Assembly: GCA_036768485.1 (NCBI GenBank)
Contig: JAVLUZ010000223.1
Coordinates: 4,667,893 to 4,731,892, forward strand
Reading direction: 5' to 3'
DNA: 64,000 nt
Source of the DNA: Mermis nigrescens
Taxonomy: Eukaryota; Nematoda; Enoplea; Mermithida; Mermithidae
Shown: piece by piece, positions 28,304 to 43,423 of the stretch
How the letters are laid out: each line of letters begins with the position of its first letter
Numbering within the stretch: position 1 is the first letter of the stretch
Notes under the pieces: generated by a model
What the model was told of the DNA's origin: nothing
The model's database searches: none
What the model saw: the letters and a program-made list of their open reading frames with translations, nothing else
Made by a program: the position numbers and the translations under genes

Positions 28304-28671
28304 TCAAATGGGACCGTTGCCTACCCTGAATGTCATATATTCATCAAAGCAAAACTCCTTTTTAGATTGCGCAACATATTCCATAATACTCAAAACCTTG
28401 TCAGCATTCAAATATTGACGCTGAGTGAATGGGACTATTACACGCTCATATAAAGTTGGGTGCCTAATTTCAATGCCTACCATACAGTCTGCAGGGTAGT
28501 CAGCGTAACATTTTTTGATGACATCTTCAAAAATTGGCTCAAAAAGCTCAATTATATGGGGGCACTCATAAATGTTTCGAAACTTCAACAGAAACGTTTT
28601 TGCAATAGATTTAAACTGCGAACAGATATGGGTGGAAGCTCACCTACTTCATAATATCGATTTACATCCAT
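28304..28671 (-). pseudogene. Protein-primed family B DNA polymerase, N-terminal fragment
   Basis: A first ATG at 28671 opens MDVNRYYEVGELPPI... and, after a one-base frame change near 28588, a second frame carries an E-[IL]-RHP-TL..VIVPFTQR segment and a VAQSKKEFCFDEYMTF segment. This succession (P-L-x-x-P-I-x-[IL]-PF, then Q-S-x-x-x-F-x-x-D) is typical of the N-terminal region of Polinton polymerases. Similarity stops at a TGA at 28304, leaving about 120 of more than a thousand expected residues; no exonuclease or polymerase motifs remain. It reads divergently from the small plus-strand ORFs. Family assignment rests on recall of the pattern rather than an alignment. Confidence 0.55.
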
Positions 28672-28781: not shown

Positions 28782-28877
28782 ATGGAAGAATTGAGAGAAT
28801 TCAAAAAATTGCCGTTCAACGAAGGATTAAAAAAAGCCCTATTGGAGGTCATTCCGACCGCCTATAGAGCTATGTAG
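28782..28877 (+). CDS. Small hypothetical viral ORF (31 aa)
   Basis: First ATG after the CTATAAATAC box. The product MEELREFKKLPFNEGLKKAL... is amphipathic and charged, with no recognised family. It may be a short genuine product or the start of a gene broken by the TAG at 28875. Nothing confirms translation. Confidence 0.35.
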   Translation: MEELREFKKLPFNEGLKKALLEVIPTAYRAM

Positions 28878-28998
28878 CAGAAATCTGGAGCACCCCATGT
28901 TCCCCTGATGATCTTACCTCTGCTACTTTTGCCAAAAATATGAGTTCCGAGAGGGACTTTTTGAAACAAATGCAGGCAGGTGGTACTTGAATATACAA

Positions 28999-29112
28999 AT
29001 GTGTCCCAAATGCTCCGAATCTAATAGGGCCATGCAAGAAGCAGGGCAACGCGTCCTGAAGCGCTACACTGAGCAGCAGGCTGGGGAGGAAAAGGCCAAA
29101 GCTACGTACTAA
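28999..29112 (+). CDS. Small hypothetical viral ORF (37 aa) with a CPKC knuckle
   Basis: Begins MCPKCSESNRAMQEAGQRVL and ends in a charged E/K/A-rich tail, with its stop three bases before the next TATA region. The single C-x2-C pair could be half of a zinc knuckle. It may be a fragment, because open frames upstream (28868-28980) are interrupted by stops. Confidence 0.3.
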   Translation: MCPKCSESNRAMQEAGQRVLKRYTEQQAGEEKAKATY

Positions 29113-29117
29113 AAGTC

Positions 29118-29125
29118 TATAAATA
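29118..29125 (+). promoter_or_regulatory. TATAAATA box of the 29170 gene
   Basis: TCTATAAATAAGG at 29116-29128 matches the shared element motif over CTATAAATA and lies 44 bases upstream of the ATG at 29170. Confidence 0.6.
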
Positions 29126-29169: not shown

Positions 29170-29358
29170 ATGTCTTCTCCTTGCGAACTAGCGTATCATC
29201 ATTTTGTTCAAAGGCTCGTCGAAAAAGCAAACAACCGCTACTTGAGCATCAAAAATGTTCAAAATATAGGCTCGTGTTTCTGGGGATTCATGGGCGAAGA
29301 GTTTAACGAAGAGCAACGCGAAATTGATAAACGCAACGCGTTCTGGGTCCTTGCTTAA
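29170..29358 (+). CDS. Paralogous small protein C (GxxFW family)
   Basis: 62 residues, no known family. It contains Y-x-HF-x3-L near residue 9, then G34-SCFWGFMGEEF...EID. The spacing G-x2-F-W-x5-E-[YF]-x7-D is identical to that in the proteins at 30634 and 36316, which indicates three members of one family in this element. This copy has a six-residue longer loop before the glycine and stops soon after the aspartate, so it may be truncated. It has its own TATAAATA box. Predicted largely helical from its composition; function unknown. Confidence 0.55.
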   Translation: MSSPCELAYHHFVQRLVEKANNRYLSIKNVQNIGSCFWGFMGEEFNEEQREIDKRNAFWVLA

Positions 29359-29500
29359 AATATAAAGCAAACGATTCTGAATAAAGATATTGATGCTATA
29401 TGTATTCTATGATCGTCATTCGACATAAATGGAAAAAACATGTGGAAGAATTTGTATGAAAATTGTATCGATTATCATGTAAATCGTGTGTTGTGATGTT

Positions 29501-29537: not shown

Positions 29538-30601
29538 ATGGATAGAATACTGAAAAAATTGTACTACGACCCTCAAAGCGGGTTCATGGGCGTCAATCAA
29601 CTTTACATTCGAGTGAAAAAAATTTGCCCGACCGCCAAATTGGAACAGGTAAAAGCATGACTGGAAAAACAACCTACCTAAACTTTACACAAACCCGCAT
29701 TCAAGCGATATTCTCGAAACAAAGTCCTAGTGAGCAGCGTAGATGAGCAGTGGCAGGCCGATTTGGCCGACCTTCAATCATTAGCCGACCACAATGATAA
29801 TTTTAAGTATCTACTCATCTGCATAGACATTTTCCCAAAGTACGCATGGTCCGTTCCACTGAGAAGCAAAAATTCTAAAGATATGGTCGAGGCTTTTAAA
29901 CACATTTTTGCATCGTCTGGCCGCTAACCCTATAAGCTACAAACGGACGCAGGAAAATAATTTGTATACAACGAGTTTCAGGAATTTTTGAAATGGGAAT
30001 CTGTCGATTTTTTCACCACTAAAAGCGAAATGAAAGCATCTGTTGTGGAGCGTTTTCATAGAACACTCAAAGAACGCATGTGGAGGTATTTTACTAATAG
30101 CAACACGTACAAGTATATTGACATTTTGCCAAAAATTATGAAAAATTACAACGATTCGTTTCATAGAACAATAGGTACGTGTCCGGCGAATGTGACGGCT
30201 AAGAACGAGCGTGAAATATCGAACAGAGCATTCCGCCTTACTGGCGATAATCATAACTGAATTCAAATTCGAAATTGGCGACTAAGTCAGAATAAGTAAA
30301 GTGAAACGTACGTTCGAAAAAGGATTCTGGCCCAATTGGACCGAGGAGTATTTTGTAGTTAAAGAAAGATACGCTAGAACACCACCCGTCTATGTTTTAG
30401 AAGATCAAATGGGCGAAAAACTAGATGGTATTTTTTACGAACCCGAACTGCAAAAGATTAACATTTCCACTGACGATCTGTTCATTATTGATAAAATTAT
30501 AGAAACGCGAAGAAGAGGTAGCAAAAACTGATTATTTGGTACGTTGGAGGGGCTACCCGCCCAAATTCGATTCATAGGTATCTAATGTGCTAAAAGAATA
30601 A
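29538..30601 (+). pseudogene. Retroviral-type (rve) integrase with C-terminal chromodomain, decayed
   Basis: Would integrate the linear element DNA. 29538-30260 is one frame interrupted by four in-frame stops (one TGA, three TAA). It contains an N-terminal helical region, a QWQADLADL segment with the first catalytic aspartate, an LQTDAGK segment with the second, and KASVVERFHRTLKERMWRYF with the catalytic glutamate. A frame change near 30255 leads to the C-terminal segment with KRTFEKGFWPNWTEEYF and FYEPELQK, after another TAA. A further shift near 30525 leads to a chromodomain-like DYLVRWRGYPPKFDS, with one more stop. Order and motifs are those of Polinton integrases. At least six stops and two frameshifts make it non-functional. 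Confidence 0.9.
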
Positions 30602-30633: not shown

Positions 30634-30972
30634 ATGGAGGTTGGACATGTTTTTTTCAATCATGCGTTGCACCGTTTGTCTCAATACACGTACTTTTCTG
30701 ACGCCGCACTTGGCGCGTATTTTTGGCCTAAAATGAGCAAAGAATATAGGCAAACATTGCTAGAAATTGATGAACACGCCATTTGGCGCTTTTCAAAGTA
30801 TATAAGAAAATATTTACAAAGAGGCGAATTGAGCACGCTTTTCAAGTTATGTGAATGTTTAAGCCCAGAGGCCAAATTTTATCATGCAAATCTTTACATA
30901 AAAAACCTCGATGAGCACATCACCTCATCCATGACAAACGTTCTAATCTACAAAAGCGCAAATTTTTTGTAA
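30634..30972 (+). CDS. Paralogous small protein A (GxxFW family)
   Basis: 112 residues, intact, no recognised family. It shows FFNHALHRL, then G27-AYFWPKMSKEYRQTL..ID, and a C-terminal half with LCECL...AKFYHANLY and LDEHI. The same succession occurs in the gene at 36316-36631, and the first half in the gene at 29170. It appears helical. It lies between the integrase and the convergent TBP gene and is the only one of the three copies with an unbroken full-length frame, so it is the reference member of the family. Confidence 0.65.
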   Translation: MEVGHVFFNHALHRLSQYTYFSDAALGAYFWPKMSKEYRQTLLEIDEHAIWRFSKYIRKYLQRGELSTLFKLCECLSPEAKFYHANLYIKNLDEHITSSMTNVLIYKSANFL

Positions 30973-31199
30973 AGTTTGGAATATTTTCTCGTGATAGTTT
31001 GGAATATTTTTTGTAAAGTTCGGAATCATTTTGCGTGCTCAAGCATAGGATATTTTTGCAGAGTTTGGAAAAAATTTTGCAGAATTTGGATAAATTTTAC
31101 ATGTTTAAGCAGAGTACTTTTGTGAAGTTTGGAAAATTTTTTGTAAAGTTCGAAATATTTTTTGTAAAGTTTGGAAAAGTTCTAGTAAACTTTAGAATA
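30970..31199. repeat. Degenerate ~20-bp tandem repeat between convergent viral genes
   Basis: About ten imperfect units built on TTTTTTGTAAAGTTTGGAAT, with variants such as GTAAAGTTCGGAAT and GCAGAGTTTGGAAA. The tract fills the gap between the 3' ends of the plus-strand 30634 gene and the minus-strand TBP gene. T-rich on the plus strand. It could serve in 3'-end formation for both transcripts, or be a simple expansion. Confidence 0.7.
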
Positions 31200-31719
31200 T
31201 TATGTATCTAATCTGCATTTCTCAAGCATTGTTGAAACTATTTTATACGCTATATGCAACTCGTGCTTGTGTTTTGCACCTGTGAGAATCATTTTTCCGC
31301 TTGTAAAGAGTAAAAAAGTCACATTTCTAAATTTGTATACTAGGCCGGTAAATAATTCTACTTCGTACATGCATTTTCTTTTCATCAGCTCATAAAACTT
31401 ACAAAGATCAATGCGAAATCCCAAGTTAGCCGAGCCAACAAACAGCACAAGGCTTTATTTTCAACATTAAATTCTCCATTTTTAGTATATGGATGAATGC
31501 CTTTATCGTATTTTCTCCTTCTTGAACAGTTTTAGCTCCAACACATACAATTTTGCCCGACTTGAAAATCAGCAACGTAGCTGGGAGTAATCGAAATATG
31601 ATGCCTGGAAATTTTAGGCGATTGTATTGCGTAGTATTTGGCAATTTAAGGTAGATATCATCTAGATTTAGCGTGTTTGGTAGTGCTGTAGTTAGCACAA
31701 TGTTCTGTATTGTAACCAT
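31200..31719 (-). CDS. TATA-binding protein (TBP) homologue, one internal frameshift
   Basis: The core TBP fold is a saddle made of two direct repeats that bends TATA DNA. Repeat 1 (from the ATG at 31719) begins VTIQNIV and has KFPGIIF...LLIFKSGKIVCVGAK. Repeat 2 has VGSANLGF...ELFTGLVY...LLFTSGKMILTGAK. Both copies keep the SGK-x-x-x-x-GAK strand and the two phenylalanines that intercalate into DNA (repeat 1 residues 37 and 52; repeat 2 equivalents 15 apart). The loop between them is two residues shorter than in cellular TBP in both repeats. There is no N-terminal extension; total length about 172 residues. A one-base frame change at about 31455, between the repeats, splits the frame. Head-to-head with the ATPase gene across a shared TATA region. 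Confidence 0.85.
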
Positions 31720-31722
31720 TTT

Positions 31723-31755
31723 CTATAAATACCTATATATAAATTGTTATTTATA
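31723..31755. promoter_or_regulatory. Shared bidirectional TATA promoter of TBP and ATPase
   Basis: CTATAAATAC at 31723-31732 faces the ATPase ATG (31763, 31 bases after the box). TATTTATA at 31748-31755 is TATAAATA on the minus strand, 28 bases before the TBP ATG (31719). The boxes are inward-crossed, so each lies in the 5' leader of the opposite gene. The 43-base gap leaves no room for anything else. Confidence 0.75.
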
Positions 31756-31762
31756 AACAAAA

Positions 31763-32410
31763 ATGATTTTCAAACACCCTTTCACCTGTCTTGTCTCTGG
31801 ACCAACAAAGTCCGGTAAAACTACATTTGTTGGGCGATTAATCGAAAATAGAGCACACTTGATTGATACCAAAATTAAAAAGATTTGGTGGTGCTTTGCA
31901 GAAAATCAACCACTTTACAGGAAAATTGAAAATGTTTCGTTTATAGAGGGGCTTCCTGATTTTTCATACTTGAAACAGTTTAGTCCTGTGCCGCAACTTT
32001 TGATTCTCGACGATCTGATGCAAGAGAGCAAAGGTAATACTCAGATTGTACAGCTGTTTACACGTAGTTGTCATCATTGGAACATTAGCATTATTCACAT
32101 TGTTCAAAACGTGTTCTTTGAGGGACTCAGAACTTCACGTATAAACTCTGACTATATAGTTTTATTTAAAAATCCTGCCGATCAATTACAGGCGCAAGTT
32201 TTATCTCGTCAGCTTTATCCTGCCAATCCGAAATATTTCCTAGAAGCCTACTCCGATGCTACTGCTCAGCCGCATGGCTATCTCTTGATTGATCTTACTC
32301 AGAACGCTAGAGATGAACTTAGGCTAAAAACGAATATCTTCAGCAGTCATCCAGCTGTTTATATGCAAAAATCTATAAATACTACAAAAAAAGGTGATGA
32401 AATCAAATAA
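31763..32410 (+). CDS. A32-like genome-packaging ATPase
   Basis: 215 residues, intact. FtsK/HerA-superfamily ATPase that pumps viral DNA into capsids in Polintons, poxvirus-like viruses and virophages. Walker A is GPTKSGKT at residues 13-20, Walker B is LLILDD at 79-84, a candidate arginine finger sits in FTRSCHHWNIS (R101), and the sensor-like IHIVQN follows at 111-116. Length is typical of this family in Polintons. It starts the plus-strand morphogenesis block and shares a promoter with TBP. The ATG was chosen because it is the first after the TATA box and lies shortly before Walker A. Confidence 0.93.
   Translation: MIFKHPFTCLVSGPTKSGKTTFVGRLIENRAHLIDTKIKKIWWCFAENQPLYRKIENVSFIEGLPDFSYLKQFSPVPQLLILDDLMQESKGNTQIVQLFTRSCHHWNISIIHIVQNVFFEGLRTSRINSDYIVLFKNPADQLQAQVLSRQLYPANPKYFLEAYSDATAQPHGYLLIDLTQNARDELRLKTNIFSSHPAVYMQKSINTTKKGDEIK
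32374..32381 (+). promoter_or_regulatory. TATAAATA box of the 32417 gene
   Basis: CTATAAATAC at 32373-32382 lies within the 3' end of the ATPase reading frame, 35 bases before the ATG at 32417. A second TATAAATA at 32497 lies inside the 32417 gene and has no start codon at the usual distance. Confidence 0.65.
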
Positions 32411-32416
32411 AACAAA

Positions 32417-32767
32417 ATGGGTAAAGAACGATTAAGACGCAATATTATTTGTTTACACCTTCTAAGTCAAGCAAGGAAACCTCAAAGGGACGCTATTATA
32501 AATACTGCCAGTAAAGATCAGATTCTTTGTCTCTGTGACTGTGCAAACAACTTTCTTAACGGTAATATTCCCTTTTCTGAAAAGGATATCAACAAACTTC
32601 GAAGATACCAGCATCAAATAAGGTACTTGGCAAACAATAAACAGGCAAACACAAAACAAAAAAGAGGTATTTTAATACAAGACGGTGGTTTTCTTCCACT
32701 TTTACTTACTCCTATTCTTACAATTGCAGGTACTTTACTAGCTGATGCAATAACGCGCAGGCAATGA
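32417..32767 (+). CDS. Polinton-type small basic protein with hydrophobic tail
   Basis: 116 residues, intact. A basic helical front (MGKERLRRN, CDCANNFLNGNIPFSEKD) is followed by a lysine/asparagine-rich linker, and then a conserved GGFLPLLLTPIL..AG hydrophobic C-terminus. A protein of this pattern (helical, NVLNGN-like motif, RGGFLG-like tail) is common in the morphogenesis block of Polintons and adintoviruses and is presumed virion-associated. Its exact role is unknown. The stop overlaps the next ATG by four bases (ATGA), which suggests coupled expression. Confidence 0.65.
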   Translation: MGKERLRRNIICLHLLSQARKPQRDAIINTASKDQILCLCDCANNFLNGNIPFSEKDINKLRRYQHQIRYLANNKQANTKQKRGILIQDGGFLPLLLTPILTIAGTLLADAITRRQ

Positions 32768-33330
32768 AGCACACTGAAAAAATGATTTTAATACCCGCTG
32801 AAATCAGTGAACGTTCTAAACCGGTCGACGTTTTGCTTGATAACTTAAATAATGAGATGCAACAAATTTTAAGCAGCAAAAATGTACCATCTGATGTAAA
32901 ACTTGTAAAATATAATCAAATACTAGGCAAATTTAAGCGATTGCTCGAACAGAAGCAGCAACCATATAAAGCTACTATTGTAGGACATGCAAGTGACACA
33001 ATTAATGACGAAGAAATACTCACTGGTATACCGAAAAATCAGATTCCAAAGGCAAAACTCCTTCTACACTACATTCGCACAAACCCATTTGTGGAAATCG
33101 AGCCTAATGGTGAGCTTGTAATAGATGGTCAAAAAATCAATGGTTCAAACATCACAGATTTAGTTAATGATCTGGCACGTGAGCGCAAAAAAATAAGCAG
33201 GCATCCTGGCACAAAAGAATTGCTGAAAGTGTTTAATCGCACAAATGTACCACTAGAAAGTATTGCTAATAGACAAGGTAAGGAGATTTTTGCTGCAGGC
33301 GACGAATTTGACTGGGATGAAAGTCTATAA
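32764..33330 (+). CDS. Polinton-conserved hypothetical protein
   Basis: 188 residues, intact. Contains MILIPAEI near the N-terminus, a coiled-coil-like charged first half (LDNLNNEMQQIL, KYNQILGKFKRLLEQ) and a C-terminal INGSNITDLVNDLARERKK segment followed by EFDW. The V-P-x-x...YNQ-x-L and S-N-I-x-D-L-V-N-D pattern is familiar from a conserved gene beside capsid genes in animal Polintons. Function is unproven; a scaffold or virion role is plausible. It has no TATA box of its own and starts inside the preceding gene's stop. Confidence 0.65.
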   Translation: MKHTEKMILIPAEISERSKPVDVLLDNLNNEMQQILSSKNVPSDVKLVKYNQILGKFKRLLEQKQQPYKATIVGHASDTINDEEILTGIPKNQIPKAKLLLHYIRTNPFVEIEPNGELVIDGQKINGSNITDLVNDLARERKKISRHPGTKELLKVFNRTNVPLESIANRQGKEIFAAGDEFDWDESL

Positions 33331-33333
33331 ATA
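33326..33333 (+). promoter_or_regulatory. TATAAATA box of the 33372 gene
   Basis: GTCTATAAATACT at 33323-33335 overlaps the last codons and stop of the preceding gene, 38 bases before the ATG at 33372. The spacing decides in favour of that ATG over the GTG at 33354. Confidence 0.7.
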
Positions 33334-33371: not shown

Positions 33372-33815
33372 ATGCATGTACAATTCACTCCTGACAATTA
33401 CACCGTTTGGTTGGAATACTACACTGGGCAGGCTGCCCAAACCGGCTATGGGTTGGATGGGTTTAAAGGCATCCCATACCAGCGGGGTGTTGGCCTTGGC
33501 AGCTTTTTCCGCTCACTTTTTAGAATGGCCGTCCCTGTTTTGCAATCAATAGGTAAGCGTGTTGGAAAGCATGCTTTAGCAGCAGGTGCAAACATAGCGT
33601 CTGATTTGGCTCAAGGAAAACCGCTTTTTGAGTCTACTAAGGAACATTCAAAGCGAGAAGCTGCTCAACTTTTTGATGAAGCCTCTCAAGCCCTGCAGCA
33701 GCAAGGAGAGGGTCTTGGTTACCGCTCAAAGTCTATAAATACTAATGCAATTGATGCTTTTTCTAAAAACGACAAAAATGGCTCTCATAGACGTAAAATC
33801 TATCCCAAGTACTAA
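33372..33815 (+). CDS. Minor virion protein with membrane-active/core segment (adenovirus pX/pVI-like)
   Basis: About 147 residues from the ATG chosen by box spacing. It carries YGLDGFKGIPYQRGVGLGSF, then an amphipathic glycine/alanine/arginine-rich segment (FFRSLFRMAVPVL, GKRVGKHALAAGANIASDLA) and a charged tail. A GF-G-x-P-x-QRG-x-GLG motif before a hydrophobic basic helix is the usual form of a small virion protein next to the capsid gene in Polintons and adintoviruses, often compared with adenovirus core or membrane-lytic proteins. Its 3' end overlaps the major capsid start in another frame. Confidence 0.6.
   Translation: MHVQFTPDNYTVWLEYYTGQAAQTGYGLDGFKGIPYQRGVGLGSFFRSLFRMAVPVLQSIGKRVGKHALAAGANIASDLAQGKPLFESTKEHSKREAAQLFDEASQALQQQGEGLGYRSKSINTNAIDAFSKNDKNGSHRRKIYPKY
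33734..33741 (+). promoter_or_regulatory. TATAAATA box of the major capsid gene
   Basis: GTCTATAAATACT at 33731-33743, inside the preceding gene, 36 bases before the ATG at 33778. An in-frame ATG at 33745 is only three bases from the box, so 33778 (MALIDV) is the likely start. Confidence 0.7.
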
Positions 33816-35072
33816 AACCGAACTAGACCTTTTTACGGTCCCTCCTACCCAAGTAGTTGTGAAGCAAGGCTTCTGGCATGAAATTCAACCTACGCACCCT
33901 ATCACTAACGAGGGGCCCTATGAATTTAGAATTCCACCCGACCCCCATTATCTTCAGCTGAACAAAAACTACATTTATATGCTATTAAGGATCAAAAAAC
34001 CAACAGTCGCAGCTGGAGCATCAGTACCCGACTATGCGCCTATCAATCTAATTGGTAAGACTTTCTTCAAGCAGGTGAAATGTTTCCTAGGAGGCCGCTT
34101 AATTTTTGATAGCTCTGATAAGTATGCATACAGATCGTACTTTGAAACTGAATTAAATTATGGTTATGATGCAAAGCATTCTCAACTTGCAATCTGCCCT
34201 TTACTTCCACGAAGGAGGAGGCAATGTGGACACAAAAGACAATGAAGCATTCAAGAATACGTGCTAAAATGTTTAAAGATGAAAATTTTGTAGAAGTGGC
34301 GGCTCCATTGCACATTGACTTGTTCTTGCAAGACAGATTTCTGATTAATTTCACCGATTTTCGCTTAGAATTACATAGAAATAGCGACGCATTTTTACTA
34401 CAGTGCTTTGAAGACGCTATTTTAGAATTAAAAGTCTCACAAATGAAATTTTTTATTCGAAAAGTTGAGGTTTTAGACACTGTCAATTTAGCACTTGAAC
34501 AAACAATGCTCTCATATACAGCAAAGTATCCTATTAGGCGCGTGGCTATGACTAACTTACACATTTCAAATCCTGCTAGAGAAACGCCCAATTATACCCT
34601 GTTTAATGGTCAGCTACCTAGGCGTATGGTGTTTGCTTGTGTCGATGGCAATGCATATCGAGGCAATTTGGCCAAATCGCCATTTAATTTCAAACCATAC
34701 AGCATATACGATGTAAAAGTAACGTGTGGCGGCACAACCTACCCCGCTTATCCACTCAACATTGCATTCAAACACGATAGGTACTTGCAAGCTTATAATC
34801 AGATGTATGATGCACTAGATATAGGACGTGAAGGTAATTTCATTAGCAGAGACGAGTTTAAAACAAGCCACTGCTTCTTTGTGTTTGACCTAACGCCTGA
34901 CGCAGATGATGGAGGGCATTGGGATCTAGTGCATGAAGGAACAACGAGCATAACTGTAAGGTTTGCTGACAATTTGCCTGATTCTGGCGTGGAAATCATT
35001 ATATACGCCGAATTTGATAACTTAATAATGATTGACAAAAATCGAAACACGTTTCATGACTATAATGCATAA
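33778..35072 (+). pseudogene. Double-jelly-roll major capsid protein, two frameshifts
   Basis: Forms the hexagonal capsomers of Polinton and adintovirus particles. Begins MALIDVKSIPSTKTELDLFT with the family's LDLF-x-VPPTQ motif, followed by GPYEFRIPP and SYFETELNYG...HSQLAI. A one-base frame change near 34200 leads to a short glycine-rich stretch, and a second near 34262 to the frame with EVAAPLHIDLFLQDRFLINF (a strongly conserved capsid motif), which is then open to 35072. Total span about 430 codons, normal for the family. Both shifts look like single-base insertions in or near short runs. They may be decay or sequencing error. Confidence 0.92.
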
Positions 35073-35075
35073 AAA

Positions 35076-35501
35076 ATGAATACCATTGAAATATTCAAAA
35101 TTCTTCAGCGTAATATTAAAAAGGATATATTTTTAGGTGTTTTTCCATTAGACCGCCTGCCACCTATTAGAACCTACCCTGCGGCTCTAGTGATTAATTT
35201 AGATACTAGCAATGCACCTGGCTCGCACTGGGTCGCCATATACTTTCAAAGCAATAAACACTGCGACTATTTTGACAGCTATGGGCGAAAACCATTTAAC
35301 CACTTATTGCATTATATTTCAAATAATGCACTCACATATGCGTACAATAATGCGCAGGTACAGGGGCTCTTTTCAATCAGCTGTGGTCACATGTGTGTAT
35401 ATTTCCTAGTTTGCAGAAGTCGAGGTATTCCTTTCAAAAATACTGTCTTATCTATGCTCAGCGAGAAAATTAATAAATACTTTAATAAACTAGAATTATA
35501 A
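35076..35501 (+). CDS. Adenain-like maturation cysteine protease
   Basis: 141 residues, intact. Cleaves virion precursor proteins. The catalytic set of the adenain (C5) family is visible in order: His51 in GSHWVAIYF, Asp67 in YFDSYG, Gln96 in QVQGLFS and Cys103 in SISCGHMCVYFL. Starts four bases after the capsid stop, with no TATA box at the usual distance (only CTATAATGC about 10 bases upstream), so it is probably read from the capsid transcript or a weak promoter. Confidence 0.93.
   Translation: MNTIEIFKILQRNIKKDIFLGVFPLDRLPPIRTYPAALVINLDTSNAPGSHWVAIYFQSNKHCDYFDSYGRKPFNHLLHYISNNALTYAYNNAQVQGLFSISCGHMCVYFLVCRSRGIPFKNTVLSMLSEKINKYFNKLEL
35472..35479 (+). promoter_or_regulatory. Degenerate TATA box of the penton gene
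   Basis: TAATAAATAC at 35471-35480 has AATAAATA, one mismatch from the consensus, 24 bases before the ATG at 35504 and inside the end of the protease gene. Confidence 0.45.
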
Positions 35502-35503
35502 AC

Positions 35504-36280
35504 ATGGATACCAAACAATTTTACATCACTCTTCCGAGCAATTCGCAAGAATCAAATACCGCGGCCACATTCATAACCAGCCTGCCTAGGCGAATCGTGC
35601 TAAATGGCGACTGGGAAGTTGGTCTGGCTGAAATAATCTACGCAAATACGTGGCACAATGTTGCCGAGGATCAGACTATGATACAATTTTACGATTTTAA
35701 AAATAATGTACGAATAAAGATGCTCATTCCCCGAGCCAGATACCAAAGTATACACGATCTCGTTAAAACAATCAGCGAGGGATTAAAAATGGTAAGTCAG
35801 AACGAAAAATTTGACTACACGGAACATATAAGCTTGCAGTATGATGATAATAAAAAATGCTGCCATCTGAAACTTAACACTGAACACGTTCGAAGCTTAA
35901 AATTAACGACACATTTAATGTACATGCTGGGATTCATAGAAAGCCAACTCAGTAGTATAAATTATACTGTCGCACAAGAATTAACTATAGCTGCCCATCA
36001 TTCTCCTGATATGCTAGGTGGTATGCATAATTTTTACGTGTATTGCGATATAGTTGAGCCTCAAATAGTTGGGAATATTTTTGCGCCACTTCTGCAAGTT
36101 GTAAATATTGAAGGAAAATACATGGATATTGTAAATCACTCGTACATTAGCCCCCATTATATACCTGTACTCAAGAAAGCATTCAATACTGTTGAAATGG
36201 ACATTAAAAGCGACCAAGATAAACCCGTGCCTTTTGAATTTGGCAAAACTATCGTTAAATTGCATTTCAGACGTCAGTAG
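35504..36280 (+). CDS. Penton-like minor capsid protein
   Basis: 258 residues, intact. A single-jelly-roll vertex protein. It opens MDTKQFYITLPSNSQ and then LPRRIVLNGDWEVGLAEIIY, the invariant start of Polinton minor capsid proteins (F-Y-x-T-L-PSN-S ... LP-x-x-I-x-L-x-G-x-WEVGLAEI). Further segments include YMLGF and PDMLGGMHNFYVYCDIVEPQ, also family-typical. It follows the protease gene by two bases. Confidence 0.93.
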   Translation: MDTKQFYITLPSNSQESNTAATFITSLPRRIVLNGDWEVGLAEIIYANTWHNVAEDQTMIQFYDFKNNVRIKMLIPRARYQSIHDLVKTISEGLKMVSQNEKFDYTEHISLQYDDNKKCCHLKLNTEHVRSLKLTTHLMYMLGFIESQLSSINYTVAQELTIAAHHSPDMLGGMHNFYVYCDIVEPQIVGNIFAPLLQVVNIEGKYMDIVNHSYISPHYIPVLKKAFNTVEMDIKSDQDKPVPFEFGKTIVKLHFRRQ

Positions 36281-41673: not shown

Positions 41674-43352
41674 AAAGCCCGGTTCAGAAGTAAAAGTCGG
41701 CGATATCGCCGATTTTTGTCGGCGATATCGCCGATTTTTGTCGGCGATATCGCCGATTTTACCGATTCAGTCGGGAAAGTCGGCGATATCGCCGACAAAA
41801 ATCGGGAAAGTCGGCGATATCGCCGACAAAAATCGGGAAAGTCGGCGATATCGCCGACTGAAAATCGGGAAAATCGTAAGAATCGGGGATATCGCCGACA
41901 AAAATCGGGAAAGTCGGCGATATCGCCGACTGAAATCGGGAAAGTCGGCAATAGATACACACATAATGACCAGCACAACAGAACACAAACCGAATAAAAT
42001 CGGGAAAGTCGGCAATAGGTATACATAATTTTTAACGCATACCCTTTGTTTTTAGCCCAAAAAGGGACTCAAGAAAAAATTTTTGCTTTACACCCCTCCC
42101 CCCAGAAATTTTTTTACTGTGCATGTCTGCGGCCAAGTCAGAAATTTTCTGGGAAAAATAGGGCAGAAATAAGGACAAAGGTGATAAAAATCGCAATTCT
42201 TTCACAAGTGTCTGAATTTCGTTCTTTATCATGAATTGTGGTAGAATTGGCGCTAATTTGACTTTTCTAGCACTTTTTCAGTCGTTTCTGGCCGTAAAAA
42301 CCGAAAAAATTTCGACCTTATGGTACCGGCTGACCGCCCAGATTGACCATGCTGTGGGCGTGGGGGGTTTGGGTGTATGCACCCCCAGAAGGCAAAATAC
42401 ACAACATGAAAACCAGAATACCTCCCAGAAATCGATTTTCGAATTTTTTAGCACTTTTCGCGATTTTTTGATGCCAATGGATAGCGCTCGATGAGAAATA
42501 TCGAAAAATGGTGCTTTTTCGCCCTACCACCATTCTTAAGACCATTTTTTACCTTTTAAAAATTTTTACACTCCCCCAGAATTTTTGTGCTGCCCACGTA
42601 TGCTCTGGGCCCCCAGAATCTGAAAGTTACCTAAAAATCAAATGACCTCGGAATTCAATGTTTAATGCGATTTTTGGCATTTTGGTCCCATTGGACTTGT
42701 AGGTACGTACGTACATACAATTATGTAATAGCACAAAGTGCCAAAATGTGTGCAGAAAAGTCAGTTGAGTATCTCAGCTAATTAAAATTCATGACGTAAG
42801 ATAGTAAGCAGTATAGTTTTTCCGTACTCGCAGCTAAAAGTACGTAATATGTGTTAATCAATAGGATTTGTTATGTAGTCAGGCACCTAGATTGGTGGTA
42901 CCTACAACATTATATGTACTTTATGATGATCTACATGAACAGCTACGTGCTTAAGTAGACAGCAGCATACCTAGCGCATACTTCAATGCACCAAAAATCG
43001 GCGATATCGTAGAAAAATAGGATGGGTTCCTATTCTTACGATTTTAGTCGGCGACATCGCCGACAAAAATCGGGAAAGTTTGCGATATCGCCGACAAAAA
43101 TCGGGAAAGTCGGCAGTATAACCGATAAAAATCGGGAAGTCGGCGATATCGCCGACTAACAATCGGGAAAATCGTAAGAGTCGGCGATATCGCCGACAAA
43201 GATCGGGAAAGTCGTAAGAATCGGCGATATCGCCGACAAAAATCAGGAAAGTCGGCGATATCGCCGACTGAAAATCGGAGGCACTTCTGAACCGGAAAAA
43301 AGTGTCGGCGATGTCGGCGATATCGCCGATTTTTACTTCTGAACCGGGCTTT
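41674..43352. mobile_element. Non-autonomous DNA transposon with palindromic GATATC arrays
   Basis: Perfect terminal inverted repeats of at least 22 bp start AAAGCCCGGTTCAGAAGTAA at 41674 and end with the complement at 43352. They are flanked by a perfect 5-bp direct repeat AGTCT (41669-41673 and 43353-43357). Next to both ends lie arrays of the perfect palindrome GTCGGCGATATCGCCGAC, separated by AAAATCGGGAAA spacers: about seven perfect copies at 41697-41945 and about five at 43140-43335, plus decayed ones. The centre (42030-42960) is filled by fragments of repeat families A and D. No transposase. Confidence 0.85.
42330..42610 (-). repeat. Interspersed repeat family D copy, inverted
   Basis: Complement of the 11870-12150 pattern: GGGGTGTATGCACCCCCAGA, CATCGAGCGC-type block (here in complement TAGCGCTCGATGAGAAAT), ATGGTGCTTTTTCGCCCTAC, ACCATTTTTTACCTTTTAAA. 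It lies inside the palindromic transposon. Confidence 0.6.
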
Positions 43353-43423
43353 AGTCTTAGTATTTCAAAAAGATAGTCAGACTGAGACTAGGACTATATA
43401 TTTTTGTTGGGAATTTACCAACG

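Follow-up and report, generated by a model that had tools for sequence, protein, structure and literature searches.

Can a virus-like transposon carry its own promoter-recognition factor, and what would it do with one? The question is raised by a 64,000-nucleotide stretch of the genome of the nematode Mermis nigrescens (contig JAVLUZ010000223.1; hereafter the window), which holds a decayed Polinton-type element and, within it, a gene for a two-lobed TATA-binding protein (TBP).

A TATA-binding protein gene borne by a Polinton-type element

An initial annotation, made from the DNA alone, had described two TBP-fold repeats on the minus strand, and a Pfam profile search recovers both: the N-terminal lobe (97 aa) matches PF00352 with 72.4 bits (E 2.8e-20) and the C-terminal lobe (82 aa) with 67.1 bits (E 1.3e-18), each above the curated cut-off of 22.9 bits. 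The predicted structures of the two halves agree with this assignment (mean pLDDT 77.7 and 92.9), and for each lobe model all 44 PDB matches at E ≤ 0.001 are TBP chains or TBP fusions, as judged from the entry titles; profile and predicted fold together rule out a chance similarity to TBP. The SGK-x4-GAK strand, the four intercalating phenylalanine positions and the lack of an N-terminal extension are all as first described, and so is the head-to-head arrangement with a packaging ATPase, the start codons of the two genes being separated by 43 bp. Directly 3' of the TBP gene (30970-31200) repeats of a TGTAAAGTTTGGAATATTTT-like unit can be seen by eye, and L064, a related locus, has a comparable low-complexity frame on the downstream side of its TBP gene.

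The two lobes occupy different reading frames, so the gene is broken in the window copy. The insertion as a whole has decayed, with a capsid gene split over two frames and a degraded integrase; this copy must be assessed from its relatives. Ten of the eleven next-best siblings (L010-L020) carry a single open TBP frame of 172 aa, and only L020 is broken. A programmed frameshift in the window gene was set aside on the strength of these open sibling frames and of the breaks in the window capsid and integrase genes.

The pairing of TBP with ATPase was followed through the 524-Mb assembly (860 contigs). Relatives of the window ATPase occur in at least 150 places (the best 150 of 2047 candidates, 83-100% identical). 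Searches with the TBP profile and with the N-terminal lobe, merged from the best 150 matches of each, give at least 259 TBP genes or halves, the two exons of host TBP included, with at least 210 in frames of 160 aa or more; these counts are lower bounds. Among the matches listed, at least 94 of the 150 ATPase copies have, no more than 150 bp away, a TBP on the other strand, and in 83 of these 94 the TBP frame reaches 160 aa. The gaps, measured between match edges, are narrowly distributed: 44 bp (n = 27), 46 bp (n = 40), 48 bp (n = 25), 53 bp (n = 1) and 69 bp (n = 1). One ATPase copy has its TBP 2573 bp away, and 55 of the 150 have none among the matches listed. We read the flanks of six of these 55 and found a full TBP in L064 and L065, a truncated one in L057, L062 and L063, and none in L061. 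The flank is therefore known for 101 of the 150 ATPase copies, and in 99 of these a TBP, three times truncated, adjoins the ATPase; for this reason we assign the TBP gene to the element, as the initial annotation had done from one copy, and its pairing with an A32-type ATPase recurs genome-wide among the matches listed. The genome holds well over a hundred copies of the mobile element itself. On one contig (G000:C51) three TBP matches at 3876189, 3884571 and 3892956 have identical scores and the same two stops at steps of 8.38 kb, which indicates a decayed copy repeated in tandem.

Comparison of window-lineage TBPs gives ratios of nonsynonymous to synonymous substitution rates (dN/dS) of 0.12-0.25 at dS values of 0.30-1.11, and the TBP of this lineage is thus under purifying selection. 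Two pairs of near copies have higher ratios of 0.46 and 0.65, as is expected once insertions decay.

The TBP gene is found in other arrangements in more distant relatives. We examined twenty 9.9-kb stretches around diverse TBPs chosen from the TBP-profile list. In L022 and L025 the TBP gene comes last in the capsid block and shares its strand; in L039 its neighbours are a capsid gene and an ATPase that are 25% and 28% identical to those of the window, and in L031 and L037 capsid genes that are 28-31% identical. It lies near a protease, an integrase and an F-box gene in L028, and near a family-B polymerase gene (PF03175, E 1.1e-19) in L029, the protein of which has no match in the window. The L024 integrase has both an rve domain (E 8.4e-14) and a chromodomain (E 4.6e-9). 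Some stretches, L032 among them, showed hardly any recognisable hallmark genes or none. Between L013 and L024 the TBP genes differ by a dS of 0.30 and the neighbouring ATPase genes by 1.07; the two genes therefore differ in history, as if TBP had been swapped between element lineages. F-box genes near TBP recur in these lineages (L028:5478-6341, PF12937, E 1.8e-11; also L027, L029 and L033-L035).

TATA-type boxes before element genes

Many genes of the element have the word TATAAATA about 30-45 bp before their ATG. The longer form TCTATAAATA occurs six times in the window, against 0.34 expected, with five of the six sites inside the element, and none of 100 shuffled sequences reaches this number. 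For four loci, with hand-picked genes and related copies, we counted genes with TATAAATA or TATAAAAG within 100 bp upstream: 5 of 8 in the window, 5 of 8 in L023, 9 of 13 in L024 and 3 of 8 in L025. Random positions give means of 0.48, 0.38, 0.78 and 0.19 respectively, and out of 2000 random draws the observed count was reached by none for the window, L023 and L024 and by one for L025. Across the twenty stretches, an open reading frame (ORF) starts 10-80 bp downstream of 17 of the 33 TCTATAAATA sites, compared with 579 of 8000 random positions, and the spacing has a preferred value, with 15 of the 17 starts lying 35-47 bp from the site. A TATA box thus stands before many element genes in the window, in L023, L024 and L025, and in the twenty stretches.

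Several of the boxes overlap the end of the preceding gene. In the ATPase and in the 33372-33815 gene the box, at the gene's end, codes for Lys-Ser-Ile-Asn-Thr; the 32764-33330 gene, by contrast, reads it in a different frame and takes its stop codon from it. That the same word serves two frames in different genes points to selection at the level of the DNA. At the matching gene ends L025 has TATAAAAG.

Protein surfaces and the probable role of the element TBP

To compare functional surfaces we aligned 20 element TBPs, taking residue numbers from the human TBP sequence. The TFIIB-contact glutamates E284 and E286 are present in all 20, followed at position 287 by leucine in 14 and isoleucine in 6. 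All four intercalating phenylalanines are kept in 18 of the 20, and the contact asparagine of the N-terminal lobe in all. Helix 2 of the N-terminal lobe has a net charge of -3 to +1 in the element TBPs, compared with +3 in the host protein, +3 in human and +2 in yeast; in three viral TBPs, distant matches from viral contigs, it is +2 to +3. Judged from the aligned residues, the basic helix-2 patch, the site of host regulators, is weakened in the element TBPs.

We propose, with a probability of roughly 0.7, that the element lineage's own two-lobed TBP binds the TATAAATA boxes before many element genes, and we predict that it recruits host TFIIB and RNA polymerase II (Pol II) there. In this model the protein would be the promoter-recognition factor for the element's own TATAAATA boxes, and the box-bound protein would feed host TFIIB and Pol II; the spacer between the two genes would be a short bidirectional promoter that drives both TBP and ATPase. 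Through its altered helix 2 the element TBP may evade host-TBP regulators that act through the basic patch, and the element could then be expressed while host TBP is scarce or inhibited. The initial annotation had the element bringing its own promoter-recognition factor to capture or bypass host transcription. The first part is supported in that the TBP is real, borne by the element and accompanied by TATA boxes; the second does not fit as well, since the kept TFIIB contacts rather suggest action through host TFIIB and Pol II.

A number of observations weigh against the proposal. Sixteen of the 33 TCTATAAATA sites have no ORF start (at least 80 aa) 10-80 bp downstream, and the first 100 bp upstream are free of a box for 3 of 8 genes in the window, 3 of 8 in L023, 4 of 13 in L024 and 5 of 8 in L025. 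On the protein side, two of the 20 element TBPs have tyrosine for the intercalating phenylalanine at position 305, the contact asparagine of the C-terminal lobe is kept in only 9 of 20, and a database protein from outside the elements (P0004) is also non-basic in helix 2, with a charge of -1. Finally, it might be host TBP that reads the boxes.

This last point leads to the first alternative, in which host TBP reads the element boxes and the element's own protein is an auxiliary copy, of importance only in those tissues or stages that have little host TBP or a substitute for it. In favour of this explanation, TATAAATA is a TATA box of the ordinary kind, which cellular TBP could bind; selection on the element TBP and its occurrence in 99 of the 101 copies with known flank point instead to a standing need, and we regard the alternative as unlikely. 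A protein with intact TFIIB contacts and a weakened regulator patch might also act against the host, competing for TFIIB or for promoters and so dampening host or antiviral transcription; we give this a low probability, as the boxes before the element's own genes offer a simpler use. Still less credit goes to a TBP that has left transcription to serve the packaging, replication or chromatin of the element's DNA. Its head-to-head position with a packaging ATPase in the window lineage and the loss of one contact asparagine in 11 of the 20 proteins would suit such a role, to which the separation of TBP from the ATPase in other lineages and the retention of the TFIIB contacts in 20 of 20 are opposed. 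That the gene is a host TBP retrocopy caught in the element by chance, as its intronless frame could suggest, is hardly credible, given that a joint clade of host and element TBPs is rejected (p 0.0018), that host TBP is only 34-35% identical to the two element copies compared, and that the gene recurs in many copies and several lineages.

On the phylogenetic analyses the TBP is no recent host retrocopy. In a tree of 30 rows 16 of the 18 element TBPs group together (support 84/86), and in a tree of 55 rows 13 of 14 do so (93/91). The L022/L025 lineage stands apart from this main group on a long branch, and a single clade of all element TBPs is not rejected (p 0.241 with 30 rows, 0.283 with 55). 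The host had been taken for an arthropod, which the TBP trees do not bear out: host TBP groups with human TBP (89/36, 30 rows) or with human, fish and beetle TBPs (95/29, 55 rows), and appears animal-like, with weak support. The element group adjoins archaeal TBPs in the trees, and the best sequence match in the PDB is the TBP of Sulfolobus (E 1.3e-30; human, 6.8e-23). We do not claim an archaeal origin, because fast evolution can give the same placement.

A protein-database search with a window-lineage TBP returned 3 distant matches, and one with another element TBP 120, the best 44-46% identical and the named ones mostly cellular TBPs; the ATPase returned 455 relatives of up to 78% identity. 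From this difference TBP seems to be confined to part of Polinton diversity, within the reach of a word-based search. Among viral contigs neither a window TBP lobe nor the ATPase found a match, and the alignment of element TBPs found the three distant ones mentioned above.

As a wider extension of our proposal, which we put forward tentatively and at somewhat below even odds, animal Polintons may possess a self-contained core-promoter system. Each lineage would match a TBP of its own to a TATA variant of its own (AAAGTCTATAAATACTA in most lineages, TCTATAAAAGA in L022/L025), use host TFIIB and Pol II while being deaf to the regulators of host TBP, and keep the pairing through reshuffling of the gene block.

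Relation to known systems and the gene block of the window

The element resembles Polintons and Mavericks in its packaging ATPase, jelly-roll capsid and adenain-type protease, in the rve-chromodomain integrase of its lineage, and in the family-B polymerase of the related L029; it is unlike those described in that it has a gene for TBP and a recurring TATAAATA box. According to the initial annotation, TBP is not known from Polintons, Mavericks or adintoviruses, and we likewise found no description of a Polinton with a TBP gene in the literature searched, the scope of which excluded most subscription papers.

Virus-encoded TBPs are themselves known. TBP and TFIIB genes are reported from large double-stranded DNA viruses (PMC7221094, PMC12085832, PMC11464507), and the element TBP resembles these viral proteins in having two lobes, in keeping most DNA contacts and in not keeping the N-lobe regulator signature. 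According to one report, viral TBPs often lack the TFIIB glutamates, are mostly accompanied by a viral TFIIB and do not keep that signature (PMC7221094). The elements differ, in that the glutamates, variable in the viruses, are present in 20 of 20 proteins, and no TFIIB, usual in the viruses, was found among the 30 proteins from the window and related stretches scanned with Pfam. TBP and TFIIB of a giant virus have been proposed to redirect the host polymerase (PMC12085832), a role similar to the one we suggest for the element TBP. Mirusviruses, with TBP in 59% of genomes, offer another double-stranded DNA virus group in which the gene is widespread; they are a separate group, reported to be related to herpesviruses and giant viruses, with far larger genomes (PMC10132985). 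The heliorhodopsin-containing mobile elements of Cymbomonas are, like ours, repeat elements of a eukaryotic genome with TBP genes, there sporadic; unlike ours, they are tied by their authors to mirusviruses (PMC10675990).

With Polintons and viral TBPs both known, what appears to be new here, on the literature searched, is a Polinton with a TBP and a shared TATA-type box. With the most basic promoter-recognition factor and a defined box before many of its genes, such an element opens the gene switching of integrated virus-like transposons to direct test, for which one small protein and a promoter of 43 bp suffice. In addition, a TBP that keeps its TFIIB contact while its host-regulator surface is weakened would be a natural experiment in what a TBP needs.

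The features of the window copy are collected in Table 1. Its Polinton hallmarks, the ATPase, capsid and protease, are each recognised by a weak single Pfam match, in one gene block that is conserved across related loci. The two capsid frames (33745-34245 and 34224-35072) match piecewise the single open 439-aa frame of L023. An rve-type integrase is present in the lineage (L024), and decayed in the window.

Table 1. Features of the element in the window (positions in the 64,000-nucleotide stretch).
Feature	Position	Strand	Remarks
Element-gene remnant	28322-28618	-	one of three remnants 46-59% identical to L024 genes
Element-gene remnant	28819-29094	+	as above
TCTATAAATA box	29116-29125	+	54 bp before the 29170 gene remnant
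Element-gene remnant	29170-29493	+	as above
Decayed integrase	29538-30564	+	piecewise 69-70% identical to L024 integrase
TBP, C-terminal lobe	31200-31448	-	PF00352 and predicted fold; frame different from N-terminal lobe
TBP, N-terminal lobe	31426-31719	-	PF00352 and predicted fold; own reading frame
TBP-ATPase spacer, 43 bp	31720-31762		TATAAATA on each strand (31724 +, 31755 -); likely bidirectional promoter
A32-like packaging ATPase, intact	31763-32410	+	PF04665, E 4.1e-4, 20.4 bits, below the 22.8 cut-off; at least 150 relatives in the genome
TATAAATA box	32374-32381	+	43 bp before the 32417 gene, within the ATPase end
Conserved element gene	32417-32767	+	relatives in L023, L024, L025; no Pfam match
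Conserved element gene	32764-33330	+	relatives in several loci; no Pfam match
TATAAATA box	33326-33333	+	46 bp upstream of the 33372 gene; overlaps the previous gene's stop codon
Conserved element gene 5' of capsid gene	33372-33815	+	relatives in L023, L024, L025
TATAAATA box	33734-33741	+	11 bp upstream of the capsid frame's first ATG
Double jelly-roll major capsid protein, broken	33745-35072	+	PF21738, E 7.2e-4, 19.3 bits, below the cut-off of 27
Adenain-type protease	35076-35501	+	PF00770, E 2.3e-4, 21.3 bits, at the cut-off
Conserved element gene	35504-36280	+	81% identical to the L023 gene

An inverted-repeat scan of the window region resolved no element ends, and Rfam gave no match in the window at the gathering threshold. 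In PHROGs 2 of 10 proteins were matched, an integrase and a polymerase only. Elsewhere in the window, at 41697-43357, there is a cluster of palindromic TCGGCGATATCGCCGA repeats.
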